A DNA stretch of 64,000 nucleotides. It comes from Alkalicoccus daliensis. GTDB lineage: Bacteria; Bacillota; Bacilli; Bacillales; Salisediminibacteriaceae. The position numbers and the translations under genes were made by a program. The notes below the pieces were generated by a model, which worked only from the letters and a program-made list of their open reading frames with translations, was not told where the DNA came from and searched no databases. Location: NCBI RefSeq assembly GCF_900103955.1, contig NZ_FNIL01000001.1, positions 124,001-188,000 on the forward strand, given 5' to 3'. Positions 870-12,900 of the stretch are shown here, in pieces (positions within the stretch are counted from its first letter, which is position 1; every line of letters begins with the position of its first letter).

Positions 870-892
870 AATGTTCGTTGCAAAGAACATTT
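870..892. promoter_or_regulatory. Inverted repeat with SinR-box-like arms
   Basis: The arms AAATGTTC and GAACATTT form an 8-bp inverted repeat. The right arm includes AAAGAAC (882-888), the exact complement of the B. subtilis SinR consensus GTTCTYT. The left arm has GTTCGTT (873-879), one mismatch from it. It lies about 40 bp upstream of the -35 box of the EPS promoter. The right arm is followed by TTTT, so a weak terminator for upstream transcription is a possible alternative. Confidence 0.45.
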
Positions 893-927: not shown

Positions 928-956
928 TTGACTTGTTCGTTATTACGAATTATTAT
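928..956 (+). promoter_or_regulatory. Sigma-A promoter of the EPS operon with palindromic operator in its spacer
   Basis: TTGACT (928-933), a 17-bp spacer and TATTAT (951-956) make a good sigma-A promoter about 80 bp before the first EPS gene. Inside the spacer lies the perfect palindrome TTCGT-TATT-ACGAA (936-949), preceded by G so that it also reads GTTCGTT, close to the SinR box GTTCTYT. A near copy, TTCGTTATTATGAA, lies at 997-1010 in the leader. A repressor bound here would block RNA polymerase directly. The promoter is seen; the operator role is inferred. Confidence 0.7.
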
Positions 957-1035
957 TGGAGAAAGAATTAAATATAGAACGTAATCTTCATATGTATTCG
1001 TTATTATGAACAAAACAATAAAAAGGAGTGAAGCA

Positions 1036-1752
1036 GTGGTGAGTGCAACTAAAGAAATCCAGCTTCGGTCAATATTAACTTCTCTACTGAGGAAATCCTG
1101 GGTTATCGTTTTATTTACCATGATTATCGGAGGAGGCGGAAACTATTATTTCCAAAGTGAAACTGCAGATTCACTTGCTACTGTGACTGCTTCAGTATTA
1201 GTAGGAGAGGGAGAGGGCCCTAAAGTTAATATGAAAACAATGACAGCTCTTATGAATGAACCTGCAGTGTTGGAAAAGGTAGTGGAAGAACTCCCATGGG
1301 AAACAAGTATTTCTGAACTGAATGGAAAAATAACTACTGAAGAAGTAGAAGGATCTCAGATTATTAGGGTGACGGCGACGGAGAAAACTCCGGAAGAAGC
1401 AGTTGTTTTAGCAAATACAATAGTAGAAGTTTTTCCAGAAGTATCACAAGAAATCACTGGTATTAATACTGTAACGATATTATCTGAAGCAGATATTAAA
1501 GAAGCAGGTATTATCGCAGGTGAAGATACAAACATGATGCCATTATTTTCACTGGTTGCAGGATTAGCAGCTGGAGTAGGAGCAGCATTTTTACTGGACA
1601 GCATTGACCAAAGAATCAGAACTGAAAGAGAAATTGAAAACCTGCTGGAAGTACCAGTATTAGGGATGATCTCAAAAATTGATAAATATTCTATGAGGAG
1701 TTCGAAAAAAAAGAACATACCGGAATTAAAAAGAGGTGAAAAAATTGTTTAA
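1036..1752 (+). CDS. epsA: Polysaccharide chain-length regulator (EpsA/YveK-like, Wzz family)
   Basis: This is a membrane protein of the Wzz/CapA type that partners a bacterial tyrosine kinase and controls EPS chain length. I chose the GTG at 1036 (the GTG at 1039 is also possible) because AAAAGGAG at 1021-1028 is correctly spaced. The upstream ATG at 1006 has no ribosome binding site and falls in an operator-like repeat. The 238-aa product has membrane segments at about 22-40 and 168-187 with an extracytoplasmic domain between. The cytoplasmic tail ends in the family motif EIENLLEVPVLGMI. It is the first gene of the operon and overlaps the kinase-like gene by 8 bp, as in B. subtilis epsAB. 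Confidence 0.85.
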   Translation: MVSATKEIQLRSILTSLLRKSWVIVLFTMIIGGGGNYYFQSETADSLATVTASVLVGEGEGPKVNMKTMTALMNEPAVLEKVVEELPWETSISELNGKITTEEVEGSQIIRVTATEKTPEEAVVLANTIVEVFPEVSQEITGINTVTILSEADIKEAGIIAGEDTNMMPLFSLVAGLAAGVGAAFLLDSIDQRIRTEREIENLLEVPVLGMISKIDKYSMRSSKKKNIPELKRGEKIV

Positions 1753-2401
1753 GAATAAAGAAGAATTTATGGCATTTTATGAATCGAGCGGTTCGAGAGT
1801 AGACCAGGATTATCAGCGAATTAAAGCAAATATTACTTTTGCTGCAAATAAAAATAATTTAAAAATTTTTACTGTTCTTTCGCCTAACGAAAAAGACGGA
1901 AAAACAAATTTTTTAACTTATATCGGTTTAACCTTCTGTAAAGAAGAAAAAAGAGTACTCCTGATAGATGGAGATTTTAAAAAACCTGGACTGCATAAAT
2001 CGTTTCACTTATCAAATGAGCAGGGGTTAAGTAATTATTTAACAGGAGAAAGCAGTCTCACAGACTGTATTCAACGAACTTCCTATCCTGGTCTTTCAAT
2101 CCTGCCAGCCGGAACGATTTCCAAACAGCTTGAGTCTATTATTCACAGCAGTCAGATGAATGCTCTCATCACTGCGCTCCGCCATAGTTATGATTATGTG
2201 TTCATAGACACAGAAGCAATGAAAGAAAGCACTGCAGCTAAAATTTTAGCTGCAAAAGCAGACAGCAGTATCGTTATTATTCGTAAGAAAAAAACAAATA
2301 CAGAAGATCTCATGAATATGCGTACGGCCTTTAAAAGTTATGGTATTCATATTACAGGAGCGGTTTTTAATACTAGAAAATTAGCATGGCTGCAAAAATA
2401 A
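1745..2401 (+). CDS. epsB: CpsD/EpsB-type tyrosine kinase homologue, divergent and lacking a tyrosine tail
   Basis: The product (218 aa) has the fold markers of a BY-kinase partner of EpsA. The P-loop region reads PNEKDGKT (about 47-54) in place of the usual PGEGKS. Walker A' reads LLIDGDFKKP (about 72-81), keeping both aspartates. Walker B reads YVFIDTEAM (about 151-159), where IDTPP is normal. The C-terminus ends in KLAWLQK, so the tyrosine cluster that is autophosphorylated in typical BY-kinases is absent. I prefer TTG 1745 as start, with AGAGGTG at 1733-1738 before it; the GTG at 1736 lies inside that site. It may be a regulatory ATPase or a weak kinase. Confidence 0.8.
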   Translation: MFKNKEEFMAFYESSGSRVDQDYQRIKANITFAANKNNLKIFTVLSPNEKDGKTNFLTYIGLTFCKEEKRVLLIDGDFKKPGLHKSFHLSNEQGLSNYLTGESSLTDCIQRTSYPGLSILPAGTISKQLESIIHSSQMNALITALRHSYDYVFIDTEAMKESTAAKILAAKADSSIVIIRKKKTNTEDLMNMRTAFKSYGIHITGAVFNTRKLAWLQK

Positions 2402-2419
2402 AAATTTTTAACAAATTTG

Positions 2420-2429
2420 TTCGTTATTA
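2420..2429. promoter_or_regulatory. Third copy of the TTCGTTATTA operator-like word
   Basis: The 13-mer TTGTTCGTTATTA of the promoter spacer recurs just after the epsB-like stop codon. It overlaps the palindrome AACAAATTTGTT (2410-2421). A perfect SinR-box complement, AAAGAAC, follows at 2448-2454. No strong -35/-10 pair accompanies it, so its role is unclear: a second repressor site or an RNA-level element. Confidence 0.3.
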
Positions 2430-2454
2430 AGCACATTTAAATTAAATAAAGAAC

Positions 2455-2570
2455 AATGGAGTTATTTCTTCTCCTTTATCAACAGAAATACTCGTCCATG
2501 CCGTGGGTGCAGCAGCACCTTAGACGCGAGTCGTCATTAGTATGGAGTGAGGGTGGGTTGAATGCCTATT
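2455..2570 (+). promoter_or_regulatory. Candidate EAR/epsC antitermination RNA
   Basis: In B. subtilis and other Bacillales the EAR element (the epsC RNA motif) lies between epsB and epsC and lets RNA polymerase read through the long eps operon. The same gap is occupied here by a GC-richer, foldable segment. ACTCG (2490-2494) pairs with CGAGT (2527-2531) and encloses the hairpin GGTGC-agca-GCACC (2506-2519). CTCC (2471-2474) can pair with GGAG (2544-2547). No open frame crosses it. I infer identity from position and structure; I could not run the covariance model. Confidence 0.65.
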
Positions 2571-2655: not shown

Positions 2656-4473
2656 TTGAATCATCGAATAAGAAATCAACTTTTAATGTTATTGGACACT
2701 CTGATTATTTTAATTGCATTTTCAGCAAGTTTTATCATTGTAGATGTACCAAGTGTAGTGTTCAGTATCAACTATTGGCTTTCTGCTTCGATCATACTGT
2801 TTAGTTATCATTTGAGTTCCATTTATTTCAAAATGAATAGAAAGGCATGGGAATACGCAAGTGTTGGGGAACTGCAAAACATATTGAAAACCCTGACAGT
2901 TGCAATATTGTTAAACGGCAGTATACAATTTATTCTATTTTCCCACATACAATACAGAGTGCTTTTTGTCACATGGGTATTGATGGTTCTGGGAATAGGA
3001 GGCACAAGGTTTTTATGGCGATTAAAAAAAGAATCGACTTTTCAGCATGTAAAAGAAAGGAAAAGAACATTGATTGTTGGGGCCGGTTCAGCTGGAACGA
3101 TGATAGCAAGGCAGCTGCTATATAATGCTCAATGTGAACTAAAACCAGTATTGTTCGTCGATGATGATCCGAATAAACAGCAGCTGGATATATTCGCTCT
3201 CCCTGTGCCAGGCGGCACTTCCCAGATACCAGAGCTTGTAAAAGCATTTGAAATTGAAAGAATAATAATTGCTATACCTTCTTTGGAACGAAAAAAAATG
3301 AAGACAATATACGAATCCTGTTTACAAGCGAATGTAAAAACTCAAATCCTGCCTATGATAGAAGATTTGGTCACTGGAAAACTTTCTGTAAAAGAATTAA
3401 GAGATGTATCTCCTGAAGATTTATTAGGAAGAGAGCAGGTGAAACTGCAGCATGAACTAATTGAATCCTCCATTAAAGGAAAAACCGTATTGGTAACCGG
3501 TGCCGGGGGGTCCATTGGATCTGAACTCTGCAGACAGATAATTTATTTCAGGCCCGAGAAATTGGTCCTTCTGGGACATGGCGAAAACAGTATTTATCAT
3601 ATTTATATGGAGCTAAAAGAAGAAGCAGGGGAAACGAAAATTCTTCCGGTAATTGCAGATGTGCAGGATTTAGAAAGAATGCGCGAAGTAATGCAGCTGT
3701 TTCAGCCGCACCAAGTTTACCATGCGGCAGCACATAAACACGTACCATTAATGGAGGAAAGTCCATGGGAAGCAGTGAAAAATAATACGCTTGGCTCCTT
3801 AAATACTGCTACAGCAGCACTGGAAAACAAAGTAAAATCATTCGTAATGATTTCTACGGACAAAGCTGTCAATCCCACAAGCGTTATGGGAGCTTCAAAA
3901 AGACTGGCAGAAATGCTAATCACTCACTTGAATGACAGGAGTAATACTTCATTTACAATCGTCAGGTTCGGAAATGTATTGGGCAGTAACGGCAGCGTAA
4001 TTCCTTTATTTAAAAAACAAATTGAAAGGGGAGGCCCGGTTACAGTAACCCACCCCGAAATGGTGAGGTACTTTATGACAATTCCAGAAGCTTCCCGCCT
4101 TGTTTTACAGGCAGGCAGTCTTTCCAAAGGCGGAGAAACATTCGTTCTTGATATGGGGGAGCCTGTGAAAATTGTGGATTTGGCCAGGAACCTGATTTCC
4201 TTGAGCGGATACACACAGGAAGAGATTGCTATCACTTATACAGGAATAAGGAGTGGCGAGAAATTGTATGAAGAACTGCTGAACAGTGATGAAATTCACG
4301 AGGAACAGGTGTATCCAAAAATTTATTTAGGAAAAGCCACTAAAATACCACTCCATGAAATTGAACAGTTTATAACACAGTATCACGAACTGGACAAAGA
4401 TACGCTTCGTGATCGTTTACTGGAACTGGCGAACAGAAAGACGTTCCCAATGGAAATTGTTTCAACAGGATAA
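2656..4473 (+). CDS. epsC: UDP-N-acetylglucosamine 4,6-dehydratase, membrane type (EpsC/PglF-like)
   Basis: This membrane-bound nucleotide-sugar dehydratase makes UDP-4-keto-6-deoxy-GlcNAc, the first step towards UDP-diacetylbacillosamine. The 605-aa protein has about four membrane helices in residues 8-120 and a first nucleotide-binding region with GAGSAG (about 142-147). A C-terminal extended SDR domain has TGAGGSIG (281-288), STDKAVNP (400-407) and the active-site segment MGASKR (411-416), where soluble SDRs have YxxxK. Start is TTG 2656 behind a GGGGGG ribosome binding site; the nearby ATG at 2652 is out of frame. Length matches B. subtilis EpsC. Confidence 0.92.
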
Positions 4474-9584: not shown

Positions 9585-10240
9585 AGGATTTAGTAATAGT
9601 AGGGAATGGCGGTCACAGTAAAGTATTAAGGGATATTGTGTTAAGGGAAGCACAGTTTAGAATTGTTGCGGTAGTAGACGATGCATTCGAAGAAGCGTAC
9701 ATGAAAGATCATAAACTTCATGTTCCTTTTATGGGAGTGGAGCCAATTAGAAGAACTTTTCCTGACGCAAAATGGATCATAGCAGTAGGAACGAATGAAA
9801 TCAGAAAAAAAATATTCAAGCGCCTGGCAATTCCTCTCACCAGTTATGCAACATTGATAGATCCTTCGGCAGTTATCAGTCCTAGCGCAAAGATAGGGTT
9901 CGGCACGGTAATCATGCCGAATGCAGTAATAAATGCACAAGCAGTTATTGGGGAGCATTCTATTATTAATTCAGGAGCTGTAATCGAACATGATTGTATA
10001 GTTGGAAACTATACGCATATTTCACCACAGGCAGTATTAACTGGCGGTGTAAAAATAATGAATGGTGTGCATATCGGAGCCAATGCCTCCGTTATACCTG
10101 GAAAAGTAGTTGGACAATGGGCTGTAATTGGGGCAGGTTCCACCGTGATTAAATCTATCCCCGCTTATATTACTGCGATAGGTTCGCCAGCTGTCATGAA
10201 ACAAAAAGGGGGAAGCAAAGTTGAAAAGTACCCTTCGTAA
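9581..10240 (+). CDS. epsM: Sugar O/N-acetyltransferase, NeuD/PglD/EpsM family
   Basis: This soluble 219-aa enzyme has an N-terminal sugar-nucleotide binding domain (DLVIVGNGGHSKVLRDI) and a C-terminal left-handed beta helix built from hexapeptide repeats, including EHDCIVGNYTHISP with the expected catalytic histidine. EpsM/PglD enzymes acetylate the 4-amino group of UDP-4-amino-sugar to give UDP-N,N'-diacetylbacillosamine. The adjacent aminotransferase supplies that substrate, and the two genes overlap by 20 bp. It starts at ATG 9581 in an ATGA overlap with epsG. Confidence 0.88.
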   Translation: MKDLVIVGNGGHSKVLRDIVLREAQFRIVAVVDDAFEEAYMKDHKLHVPFMGVEPIRRTFPDAKWIIAVGTNEIRKKIFKRLAIPLTSYATLIDPSAVISPSAKIGFGTVIMPNAVINAQAVIGEHSIINSGAVIEHDCIVGNYTHISPQAVLTGGVKIMNGVHIGANASVIPGKVVGQWAVIGAGSTVIKSIPAYITAIGSPAVMKQKGGSKVEKYPS

Positions 10241-11381
10241 ACCTATATATTTATCACCTCCGCATATGAGCGGAGAGGAACAGAATTATATCGAAGAAGC
10301 ATTTCGAACCAACTGGATAGCGCCGGTAGGACCGCACCTGCAGGCTTTTGAACAGGAAATGGAATTGTTGACTGGAGCGGCGTATGCAGTCGCAGTTACC
10401 TCTGGAACGGCAGCCATCCATCTAGCTCTTGCGGTTTTGGGAATCAAGCAGGGGGACCGAGTATTTTGTTCTACATTTACATTTGTAGCAAGTGCCAATC
10501 CTATTTTGTATCAGGGGGCTGAACCGGTATTCATTGATTCAGAGCCGACATCCTGGAACATGTCTCCCACAGCTCTGAAGCGTGCATTGAGTACTGCTTA
10601 TAAGAAAAAGAAACTGCCGAAAGCTGTAATTGTAGTGCATCTCTATGGACAGACAAGCAGGATGGAAGAGATTATGAAAATCTGTAATAAATACAAAGTG
10701 CCGGTAATAGAAGATGCAGCTGAGTCACTTGGATCATCTTACAAAGGGAAGGCTTCGGGAACCATAGGTGATATCGGCATATATTCTTTCAATGGGAATA
10801 AAATAATTACCACTTCCGGTGGAGGAATGCTCGTTACAAACAAAAAAGACCTTGCAGATAAAGCGAAGTTTTTGGCAACACAGGCAAAGGAAGAGGCTGA
10901 ACATTACCAGCATAAAGAAAAAGGTTATAACTACCGAATGAGTAATGTACTGGCAGGCATCGGAAGAGCTCAGTTAAGAGTGTTAAATGAAAGAGTAGAA
11001 GAAAAAAGAAAAATCTATCAAAGGTACGCACAGTCACTACCTTTTTACTTTATGCCCGAATACAGCAATTCAAGATCTTCAAGGTGGCTGACTGCATGTT
11101 TACTCCCTTCAGACTCAGATCCTGTAGAAATAATTGAATCGATGCGTTCCCACCAAATAGAGGTAAGAAGAGTATGGAAGCCGCTCCATATGCAGCCTCT
11201 ATTTCAGAATACGGAATTTTATCAGCATACGAAAGGACTGAGTGTAGCTGAAACTTTTTTCAGGCATGGAATATGCCTTCCCTCAGGAACGAATATGACG
11301 AAAGAAGAACAGCTCTATGTCATGAATCTTTTAAGGGAAAATACGAGAACCACCATTTCACAGGAGGCGGTAATCTTCTAA
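10221..11381 (+). CDS. epsN: DegT/DnrJ/EryC1 aminotransferase (EpsN/PglE-like)
   Basis: This PLP-dependent sugar aminotransferase of 386 aa should convert the 4-keto sugar made by EpsC to UDP-4-amino-GlcNAc. The N-terminal SPPHMSGEEQNYIEEAF, the VTSGTAAIHLAL cofactor region, EDAAESLGSSYKG and the PLP lysine in YSFNGNK (about K194) are all present. It starts with TTG 10221, preceded by AAAGGGGGAAG and overlapping epsM. With EpsC, EpsM and EpsL it completes a bacillosamine-type initiation pathway. Confidence 0.9.
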   Translation: MKSTLRKPIYLSPPHMSGEEQNYIEEAFRTNWIAPVGPHLQAFEQEMELLTGAAYAVAVTSGTAAIHLALAVLGIKQGDRVFCSTFTFVASANPILYQGAEPVFIDSEPTSWNMSPTALKRALSTAYKKKKLPKAVIVVHLYGQTSRMEEIMKICNKYKVPVIEDAAESLGSSYKGKASGTIGDIGIYSFNGNKIITTSGGGMLVTNKKDLADKAKFLATQAKEEAEHYQHKEKGYNYRMSNVLAGIGRAQLRVLNERVEEKRKIYQRYAQSLPFYFMPEYSNSRSSRWLTACLLPSDSDPVEIIESMRSHQIEVRRVWKPLHMQPLFQNTEFYQHTKGLSVAETFFRHGICLPSGTNMTKEEQLYVMNLLRENTRTTISQEAVIF

Positions 11382-11406
11382 CTCTATAGAAAATGAGGTA
11401 GTGAGA

Positions 11407-11739
11407 ATGATAGGGAAAAACATTGCCCGGCTTCGTAAAAAGAAAGGGATAACTCTTACTGAACTTGCTGAGAAAGCAAATATATCGAAATCAAATTTAA
11501 GTAATATTGAAAGAGAAATCAATCAAAATCCTTCAATTAAAGTTCTGGAAAAACTGGCCGAAGTACTGGAAACGGATTTGATTACAATTCTTGACTTAAA
11601 AGCCGAAAACGAGATTCAGAAAGAATATGAAACAATTTTGCAGCGGATATCGAGTTTAAATCTCACAGAAGTAGAATTAAAAGAATATGAGAAAGTACTG
11701 GAGTTTATAGAATGGCAAAAAAAATCTGTCAAAGGATAG
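11407..11739 (+). CDS. sinR: SinR-like XRE repressor encoded inside the EPS operon
   Basis: The product (110 aa; B. subtilis SinR has 111) begins MIGKNIARLRKKKGITL, matching SinR MIGQRIKQYRKEKGYSL. It shares ELAEKA, NIER, NPSI and LEKLAEVL in the helix-turn-helix domain (about 1-66). The tail EKVLEFIEWQKK (about 94-105) corresponds to the SinR multimerisation helix EFLDFQKWRK. ATG 11407 is chosen over GTG 11401 because GAGGT at 11395-11399 is correctly spaced for it. In B. subtilis SinR represses eps from a separate sinI-sinR locus. Here it is the eleventh gene of the operon it may control, and no SinI-like partner is seen. Confidence 0.85.
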   Translation: MIGKNIARLRKKKGITLTELAEKANISKSNLSNIEREINQNPSIKVLEKLAEVLETDLITILDLKAENEIQKEYETILQRISSLNLTEVELKEYEKVLEFIEWQKKSVKG

Positions 11740-11751
11740 GAGCATAGATAT

Positions 11752-12900
11752 ATGATAAATATCGGAATTTCGGGCACAGGATTTATTGCAGCTGGTTTAT
11801 ATAAAAGATTAGTTAGAGACCATAATTACCAGGTAAGCAGTGTATTGACTAGAAGAAGAAAAGAGGAGGTAGCGGTAGTACCTCAAAGTATACTCACAAA
11901 TAATTTGGTAGAGTTTACAAATAAAGCAGATATCATTGTTGAATGCAGTGGAGATATTGAACATGGATCTAATGTTATTGAAGAAGCACATTTTCAAGGG
12001 CTTCCGGTAGTAACGATGAATGCAGAACTTCAAGTTACCACAGGATCTTATTTTACTGGCACAGGATATATTACAGAAGCGGAAGGTGATCAGCCCGGCA
12101 GCCTGGCCTCTTTAAATGAGAATATGATTGATATGGGATTCCATCCTCTTGTATATGGAAATATTAAAGGTTTTTTAAACACAAATCCAACTTTAAAGGA
12201 TATGAAGTACTGGGCCAATTTAAAAGGAATCAGCCTTGCTAAAGTTACATCTTTTACTGATGGAACAAAAGTGCAGATTGAGCAGGCGTTAGTTGCGAAC
12301 GGATTGAACGCAGCAATCATAAAGCAAGGATTATCAGGCCTGCAAGCACGGTCTATTGAAGGAGCTGGAGCAGCATTGGCTGCAGAAGCAATAGAATTAA
12401 AAACTCCTATTAGTGACTATATCATTCGTAAAGAAGGACCTCCTGGAGTATTTATCTCTGCTACTCACGAAGATGACCAGCAAAATGAACTCTCTTATTT
12501 TAAGGTAGGTGATGGGCCAATTTATACCCTTACTACTCCGTACCATTTATGTCATTTGGAAATCATTAAAACTATTAAAAGAGTGGTAGAAGGAAAAAAA
12601 CCGTTGCTTACAAATTCCACCAATCCTTCTGTCAGTGTTGCTGGTATTGCAAAGCGTGACTTGAATCCTGGAGAATATATTCGTGAAGCAATTGGAAGCT
12701 TTGATATCAGAGGTGAAGCTGTCACAAGTTCTGAGAAACCGGATCACGTGCCAATTGGCCTTATGAAAAATATGATAATTGAAAAACCTATAAAAGAAGG
12801 GGAAGTAATTACTTTTCAAAAAATTACGCTTCCTCCCAGCCGGATTTTTAATATTTGGAAAACAATACAGACAGCGAAACCAATCACACAAGGGAAGTGA
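11752..12900 (+). CDS. NAD(P)-dependent oxidoreductase with C-terminal SAF domain (COG4091-like)
   Basis: This 382-aa protein has an N-terminal Rossmann fold (IGISGTGFIAAGLYKRL, then DIIVECSGDIEHG). Its central part resembles homoserine dehydrogenase (VVTMNAELQVTTGSYF, EGDQPGSLASL). The C-terminal SAF domain (about 285-365) includes AKRDLNPGEYIREAIG and PIGLMKNMIIEKPIKEGEVI. This architecture corresponds to the 'homoserine dehydrogenase-like with SAF domain' group. Its substrate is not known to me. Its place between a regulator and glycosyltransferases suggests it makes or modifies an unusual EPS building block. B. subtilis eps has no counterpart. Confidence 0.75.
   Translation: MINIGISGTGFIAAGLYKRLVRDHNYQVSSVLTRRRKEEVAVVPQSILTNNLVEFTNKADIIVECSGDIEHGSNVIEEAHFQGLPVVTMNAELQVTTGSYFTGTGYITEAEGDQPGSLASLNENMIDMGFHPLVYGNIKGFLNTNPTLKDMKYWANLKGISLAKVTSFTDGTKVQIEQALVANGLNAAIIKQGLSGLQARSIEGAGAALAAEAIELKTPISDYIIRKEGPPGVFISATHEDDQQNELSYFKVGDGPIYTLTTPYHLCHLEIIKTIKRVVEGKKPLLTNSTNPSVSVAGIAKRDLNPGEYIREAIGSFDIRGEAVTSSEKPDHVPIGLMKNMIIEKPIKEGEVITFQKITLPPSRIFNIWKTIQTAKPITQGK

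Follow-up and report, generated by a model that had tools for sequence, protein, structure and literature searches.

The SinR–SinI–SlrR system of Bacillus subtilis is a model of bacterial commitment to biofilm. A passage of PMC3163267 gives GTTCTYT as the SinR consensus and the inverted repeat as the form that SinR binds best. Looping by SinR is mentioned in excerpts of the same source and of PMC8481266. According to a passage of PMC10134886, the slrR gene is repressed by SinR, and SlrR antagonises SinR. In an excerpt of PMC5519356, slrR is equated with yveJ and epsA with yveK, and a passage of PMC5540618 states that slrR is raised by extension of an eps antisense RNA. The two gene names, together with the antisense RNA passage, suggest that a SinR paralogue adjoins eps in B. 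subtilis. Among the matches listed in the open PMC literature, judged by titles and the starts of abstracts, no paper described an EPS operon with a gene of the SinR family inside it.

We analysed a 64-kb stretch of DNA (the window, C15:124001-188000 of a 3.78-Mb genome) in which a gene of this kind lies inside an EPS operon. The other genes of the operon listed here were named by reading.

1006..1752, + strand: Wzz/EpsA-like protein; the operon starts with its gene
1736..2401, + strand: Wzc/EpsB-like kinase
2656..4473, + strand: EpsC/CapD-type nucleotide-sugar dehydratase
10221..11381, + strand: DegT/PglE-type aminotransferase, the conserved upstream neighbour
11407..11739, + strand: SinR-superfamily regulator, 110 amino acids, ATG at 11407, stop codon ending at 11739
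11752..12900, + strand: SAF-type oxidoreductase, the next downstream gene

The regulator shares with B. subtilis SinR a length of about 110 amino acids, the HTH_3 fold, the MIG start, most of the recognition helix and the dyads at the eps promoter. It differs from SinR in having Asn30 and Asn33 instead of Tyr30 and Ser33, in a longer, diverged C-terminal hook without a match to the SinI/SinR hook model PF08671, in being encoded inside the EPS operon without an adjacent sinI, and in its position outside the SinR branch. Like SlrR, it is a paralogue of SinR with a genetic link to eps, a changed residue 33 and, probably, repression by SinR. In contrast to SlrR, the regulator has 110 rather than 152 amino acids and is encoded inside rather than beside the operon; the extra SinI-like tail of SlrR is absent. 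The earlier note had described the circuit as different from that of B. subtilis. This contrast is smaller than stated, since slrR probably already lies beside epsA. The canonical SinR of the same genome belongs to the same superfamily and probably recognises the same box type. However, it is only 39% identical to the regulator, carries Ala33 and a full hook, and is encoded at another locus. The HTH fold, multi-box operators and possible cooperative binding also liken the regulator to the phage 434 and lambda Cro/CI repressors, but it is not a phage gene and is part of the EPS operon.

The regulator gene begins 25 bases after the aminotransferase gene and ends 12 bases before the oxidoreductase gene, in a long same-strand run of EPS genes, which agrees with the mid-operon position given in the earlier note. 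A GTG at 11401 is an alternative start that would add two amino acids; MIG is conserved as the start of the regulator. By reading, the true start of the Wzz/EpsA-like gene is probably GTG at 1036 or 1039, after AAAAGGAG. The synteny that the earlier note had suggested looking for in relatives turned out to be conserved. The regulator gene stands directly behind the aminotransferase gene in 17 of 20 loci (the window, 13 stretches and six further loci), three of the 17 being near copies (L035-L037), and directly after the same EPS aminotransferase gene in 22 of the 24 order-level loci read. The exceptions among the 20 are L026 and L040, which are still EPS clusters, and L027, in which no EPS genes were seen. 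In L040 the regulator gene is the first gene after a boxed promoter and an EAR RNA. Self-regulators often sit in such a place, which counts in favour of autoregulation.

The protein matches Pfam HTH_3 (1.4e-14), and its nearest solved relative is B. subtilis SinR (1b0n, 2.9e-19, residues 1-106). Its HTH domain is identical to that of B. subtilis SinR at 35 of 65 positions and to that of the SinR of its own genome at 31 of 65. Thus, the SinR length and SinR-like HTH domain claimed earlier are borne out. The AlphaFold2 model (mean pLDDT 84.0, pTM 0.56) contains two C-terminal helices, residues 68-83 and 88-108. Foldseek ranked 1b0n first (1.8e-6), and 434 Cro was also among the matches. The good superpositions (0.6-0.7 Å) comprise the HTH domain only, and the full-length superposition on 1b0n is poor (rmsd 10.1 Å, TM 0.57). 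Therefore, the model does not confirm the arrangement of the hook.

The claim that the protein matches SinR at both ends holds for the HTH domain; the C-terminal match is weaker than had been stated. PF08671 did not match the regulator at E<=1, nor in the search of its own genome at E<=10, and the C-terminal parts of the regulator and its own-genome SinR share 6 identities over 51 alignment columns. A profile-profile comparison with 27 SinRs aligned nearly the whole length, including the hook, with a probability of 99.9. Weak PF08671 matches under the cut-off were found in 3 of 14 family homologues (best 0.15) and in four of the five distant homologues scanned, from a set of six (best 9.9e-5). 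It takes a profile comparison, or the distant relatives, to recognise in the sequence the homology of the hook to that of SinR. The hook is three residues longer in all 44 rows of the lineage than in all 18 SinR rows tested. The spacing from the turn to the Trp is 18 in the lineage (42/44 rows by script; the two remaining rows were missed by the script pattern and have 18 by eye), compared to 15 in 18/18 SinR rows. The longer hook, together with the missing PF08671 match, argues for self-pairing of the regulator. The altered hook probably makes the regulator blind to SinI, so that it would act independently of SinI.

At E<=1e-18 the regulator has 14 homologues, in 12 of the 35 genomes of the family. 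In a tree of 44 rows, 19 EPS-type rows were split from 19 SinR rows by a branch with 100/100 support; the tree is midpoint-rooted, and SlrR and two small HTH genes are on its SinR side, on long branches and with unsure placement. The earlier note took a placement outside the SinR/SlrR group as evidence against its reading, and this separate branch, with the same reservation about the root and the long SlrR branch, is such a placement. The regulator scored 58.3 bits with the NCBIfam SlrR model NF046032, whose cut-off is 250, compared to 278.6 bits for the presumed SlrR sequence used both here and in the tree. The recognition helix reads KSNLSNIER in 14/14 family homologues and KSYLSA in 27/27 canonical SinRs; that of the regulator thus carries Asn30 and Asn33. 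Asn33 is found in all 44 lineage rows, including 6 distant and 24 order-level ones. Asn30 was dropped as a mark of the lineage: it is present in 20/20 rows of the first set and in 0/24 order-level rows, which combine Tyr30 with Asn33. Asn33 alone was dropped as a unique mark as well. Three genomes of the same genus (L123, L124, L125) have extra full-length SinR-like copies with a short hook, and residue 33 is Asn in two of these and Thr in one. The 24 order-level rows, which lie outside the tree, count as members of the lineage on the strength of their Asn33, their hook length and their synteny. Of 397 genomes drawn evenly from the order, 84 had a match to the regulator at E<=1e-30 (a hand count; the threshold is stricter than the best recognised canonical SinR match there, 1.6e-28). 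The loci read among these 84 are the 24 order-level ones and those of five genomes that belong to the family and were already in the first set. We assign the regulator to a third lineage of the SinR superfamily, distinct from SinR and SlrR and, judging by synteny, inherited within EPS operons.

A canonical sinR gene and SinI-like genes were found elsewhere in the genome.

C15:808003-808335: canonical sinR, 111 amino acids, full hook, PF08671 51.8 bits, Ala33
C21:20038: SinI-like 49-aa ORF, 41.1 bits, over the Pfam cut-off of 31.4
C12:204195: SinI-like 49-aa ORF, 27.4 bits, under the Pfam cut-off of 31.4

A search of the genome with the regulator gave three SinR-like ORFs at E<=1e-5, the regulator included. 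There is no SinI match in the window, and no sinI within the 3 kb read beside canonical sinR; both SinI-like ORFs sit on other contigs. The earlier statement that no SinI-like gene is seen is therefore right for the window and wrong for the genome. Of the genes that the earlier note had proposed to search for, another sinR and SinI-like genes are present, and no ORF of SlrR length was among those found by the SinR query at E<=1e-8. The gene directly downstream of canonical sinR is a small one with an HTH and no hook (L001 1762-2019), and similar short HTH matches occur near sinR in many family genomes. PF12389 (TasA) had no match in the genome at E<=0.01. In three other genomes of the genus (G001, G006 and G007, of which G006 is only 80% complete), the exact box is missing along with both SinR and the EPS regulator, and epsC RNA is kept in two of the three.

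The control regions of the operon contain the following elements.

873..888, no strand: SinR-type dyad 1, GTTCGTTGCAAAGAAC
928..956, + strand: sigma-A type EPS operon promoter, TTGACT-17-TATTAT, with dyad 2 occupying its spacer
935..950, no strand: SinR-type dyad 2, GTTCGTTATTACGAAT, between the -35 and -10 elements
996..1011, no strand: SinR-type dyad 3, ATTCGTTATTATGAAC
2419..2434, no strand: SinR-type dyad 4, GTTCGTTATTAAGCAC, in the gap between wzc and epsC; it starts 38 bases upstream of the epsC/EAR RNA
2457..2568, + strand: epsC (EAR) leader RNA, Rfam RF01735, 95.1 bits, gathering score 42

Thus, the region 860-1015, which the earlier note had proposed as the control region, holds three SinR-type dyads, the middle one in the promoter spacer. 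At a score of at least 15, the 64-kb window contains exactly four 16-bp dyads, all in control regions of the operon, and 50 Markov control sequences gave a mean of 0.7 and a maximum of 3. Because the first three dyads served to define the dyad rule, their own scores do not count as independent evidence; such evidence comes from the exact-pattern search with its reversed control (0/35) and from other genomes. The spacing of the dyads is 62 and 61 bp in the window and 61 and 60 bp in A. luteus, i.e., about six turns of the helix, a distance at which a tetramer could well form a loop. The whole genome has 8 sites with at most one mismatch to RTTCGTTATTAMGAAY, those of the EPS operon included. Sites with two mismatches numbered 29, compared to 24 for the reversed control, and are thus not informative. 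Three boxes, one with two mismatches, precede a gene for a secreted protein starting MSFGKKLRRNIGSFFLGY, perhaps of a second polysaccharide cluster (G000 C3:87558-87728; L072 1346-1516). Another box precedes a gene resembling class II amidotransferases and asparagine synthases (C27:190124; L058 1501-1516); such a box is found in five genomes (L058, L047, L053, L061, L062), of which four carry the EPS regulator and one lacks it. This genome has further boxes inside an ORF at C15:835228 and, on C19, in the space separating two genes.

The exact box GTTCGTTATTRMGAAT occurs somewhere in the genome in 12/12 family genomes with the regulator gene, in 4/15 with SinR only and in 0/8 without SinR at E<=1e-8 (two of these eight are under 81% complete). 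The reversed pattern was found in 0/35 family genomes. In G025 the exact box is at another locus, and its EPS box differs by one base. Among 49 epsC RNA loci, a box lies upstream of the RNA in 13/13 with the regulator gene in the operon and in 10/36 without it (L165 carries the gene and is counted here with the carriers; the script totals of 12 and 37 place it otherwise). The seven epsC RNA loci of SinR-less genomes had no box. Promoter-embedded boxes were found in the family in nine operons with the regulator gene, four of whose promoters were recognised by eye, and in eight without it; in four other carrier operons (L022, L024, L025, L041) there were boxes and no recognised promoter. Beyond the family, where the box rule was relaxed somewhat, such boxes were present in 5/5 operons read and in 15 of 20 order-level operons fetched of 24. 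L282 and L295 lacked them (in L295, 14.5 kb contained no box and only a partial epsC match), and the stretches of L283, L291 and L297 stop short of the operon head. In genomes without the regulator gene, boxes are found at the heads of sipW-tasA and asparagine-synthase genes, and GTTCGTT boxes at sipW-tasA and elsewhere. The box array is thus a feature of SinR-controlled EPS operons in general. Since such boxes are also present in SinR-bearing genomes whose EPS operon is without the regulator gene, canonical SinR alone could explain them, and the boxes do not tell which protein binds. The SinR recognition residues are identical in all 27 canonical SinRs. A candidate sign of the binder, G at position 5 of the promoter box (9/9 family operons with the regulator gene, 1/8 without), was rejected as proof: distant carriers have it in 0/5 and 1/15 cases, and the gene-less genomes have their own GTTCGTT boxes.

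The epsC RNA family is present in 32 of the 35 family genomes, and the copy in the window lies between the wzc-like and epsC-like genes. In the family, a box in the wzc-epsC gap sits just upstream of this RNA, in 8/8 gene-less operons with a promoter box and in 8/9 carriers, including the window (2419). Outside the family the gap box was found in 5/5 operons and in 18/18 order-level loci with matches to both wzc and epsC. It may be an auxiliary operator that allows loops of about 1.5 kb, or a roadblock in front of the leader RNA.

How could the regulator act? Judging by the co-occurrence of SinR and boxes, canonical SinR probably represses the EPS operon at the SinR-type boxes. When SinI lifts SinR, the operon would be expressed and the second regulator would be made. 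Most likely, it would then bind dyads of this kind, both at the promoter that drives it and between wzc and epsC, and damp transcription. The built-in negative feedback that the earlier note envisaged is thus possible. A second-layer repressor acting on the boxes of its own operon is the reading we prefer, with a confidence that stops somewhat short of calling it likely; binding, repression, self-oligomerisation and looping between boxes are its predicted steps. What speaks against it, besides the boxes of gene-less operons, the G at position 5 that fails to track the gene outside the family and the poor full-length superposition, is that Asn33 differs from the Ala or Ser33 of SinR, so the binding specificity may have moved. 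The same residue, present throughout the lineage, leads to a rather improbable reading in which the regulator has a different site and switches other outputs of the cell, e.g., motility or cell-wall genes, during EPS synthesis. A passage of PMC3163267 considers that residue 33 may explain the altered site of SlrR, and, according to an excerpt of PMC3000366, the B. subtilis eps operon encodes another output of this kind, the EpsE clutch. Against this, no separate conserved site is known, the sites searched being SinR-type dyads only.

An SlrR-like partner, which would form mixed oligomers with SinR via the hook and so titrate or retarget it, is unlikely but has to be taken seriously, because SinR probably represses the operon that holds the gene, because the gene is confined to genomes with SinR, and because slrR, whose product antagonises SinR, probably neighbours epsA. 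Since the operon is probably repressed by SinR, such a partner would make a double-negative, i.e., positive, latch, opposite in sign to negative feedback. Its place in the network would be like that of slrR, a SinR-repressed gene and probable neighbour of epsA whose product forms SlrR2.SinR2 according to a passage of PMC10134886. In the family, the regulator gene is found only with SinR (12/27 vs 0/8, Fisher p 0.03, uncorrected for kinship and only descriptive because related genomes are not independent). A SinR-like gene is present elsewhere in 6/6 distant carriers too, none of the three ORFs that the SinR query retrieved from this genome at E<=1e-8 has SlrR length, and residue 33 is unlike that of SinR, as in SlrR. 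However, the three extra hook residues in 44/44 rows and the lack of a PF08671 match favour self-pairing, and SlrR itself falls on the SinR side of the tree, though on a long branch. It is this longer hook that makes us prefer the second-layer repressor to an SlrR-like partner. The idea, suggested by the title of the earlier note, that the regulator is simply the SinR of this organism, moved into the operon, has 1b0n as the best solved match in its favour; it is very improbable in view of the canonical SinR with a full hook elsewhere in the genome and the separate branch of the regulator.

We tentatively extend the preferred reading, with less confidence than in the second-layer repressor itself, to the order: many Bacillales EPS operons may carry a third SinR-family repressor, insulated from SinI by its longer hook, which would read the box array of SinR at the promoter, the leader and the wzc-epsC gap and cap slime production after the SinI-SinR switch opens. 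With a widespread operon-borne relative of SinR, the B. subtilis wiring, in which the paralogue lies beside eps, would be one of several. Whether slime production is latched on or capped depends on the sign of the feedback, and the boxes and diagnostic residues make the role of the regulator directly testable in a laboratory strain. If the two-layer circuit is true, the on-state of the operon would limit itself.
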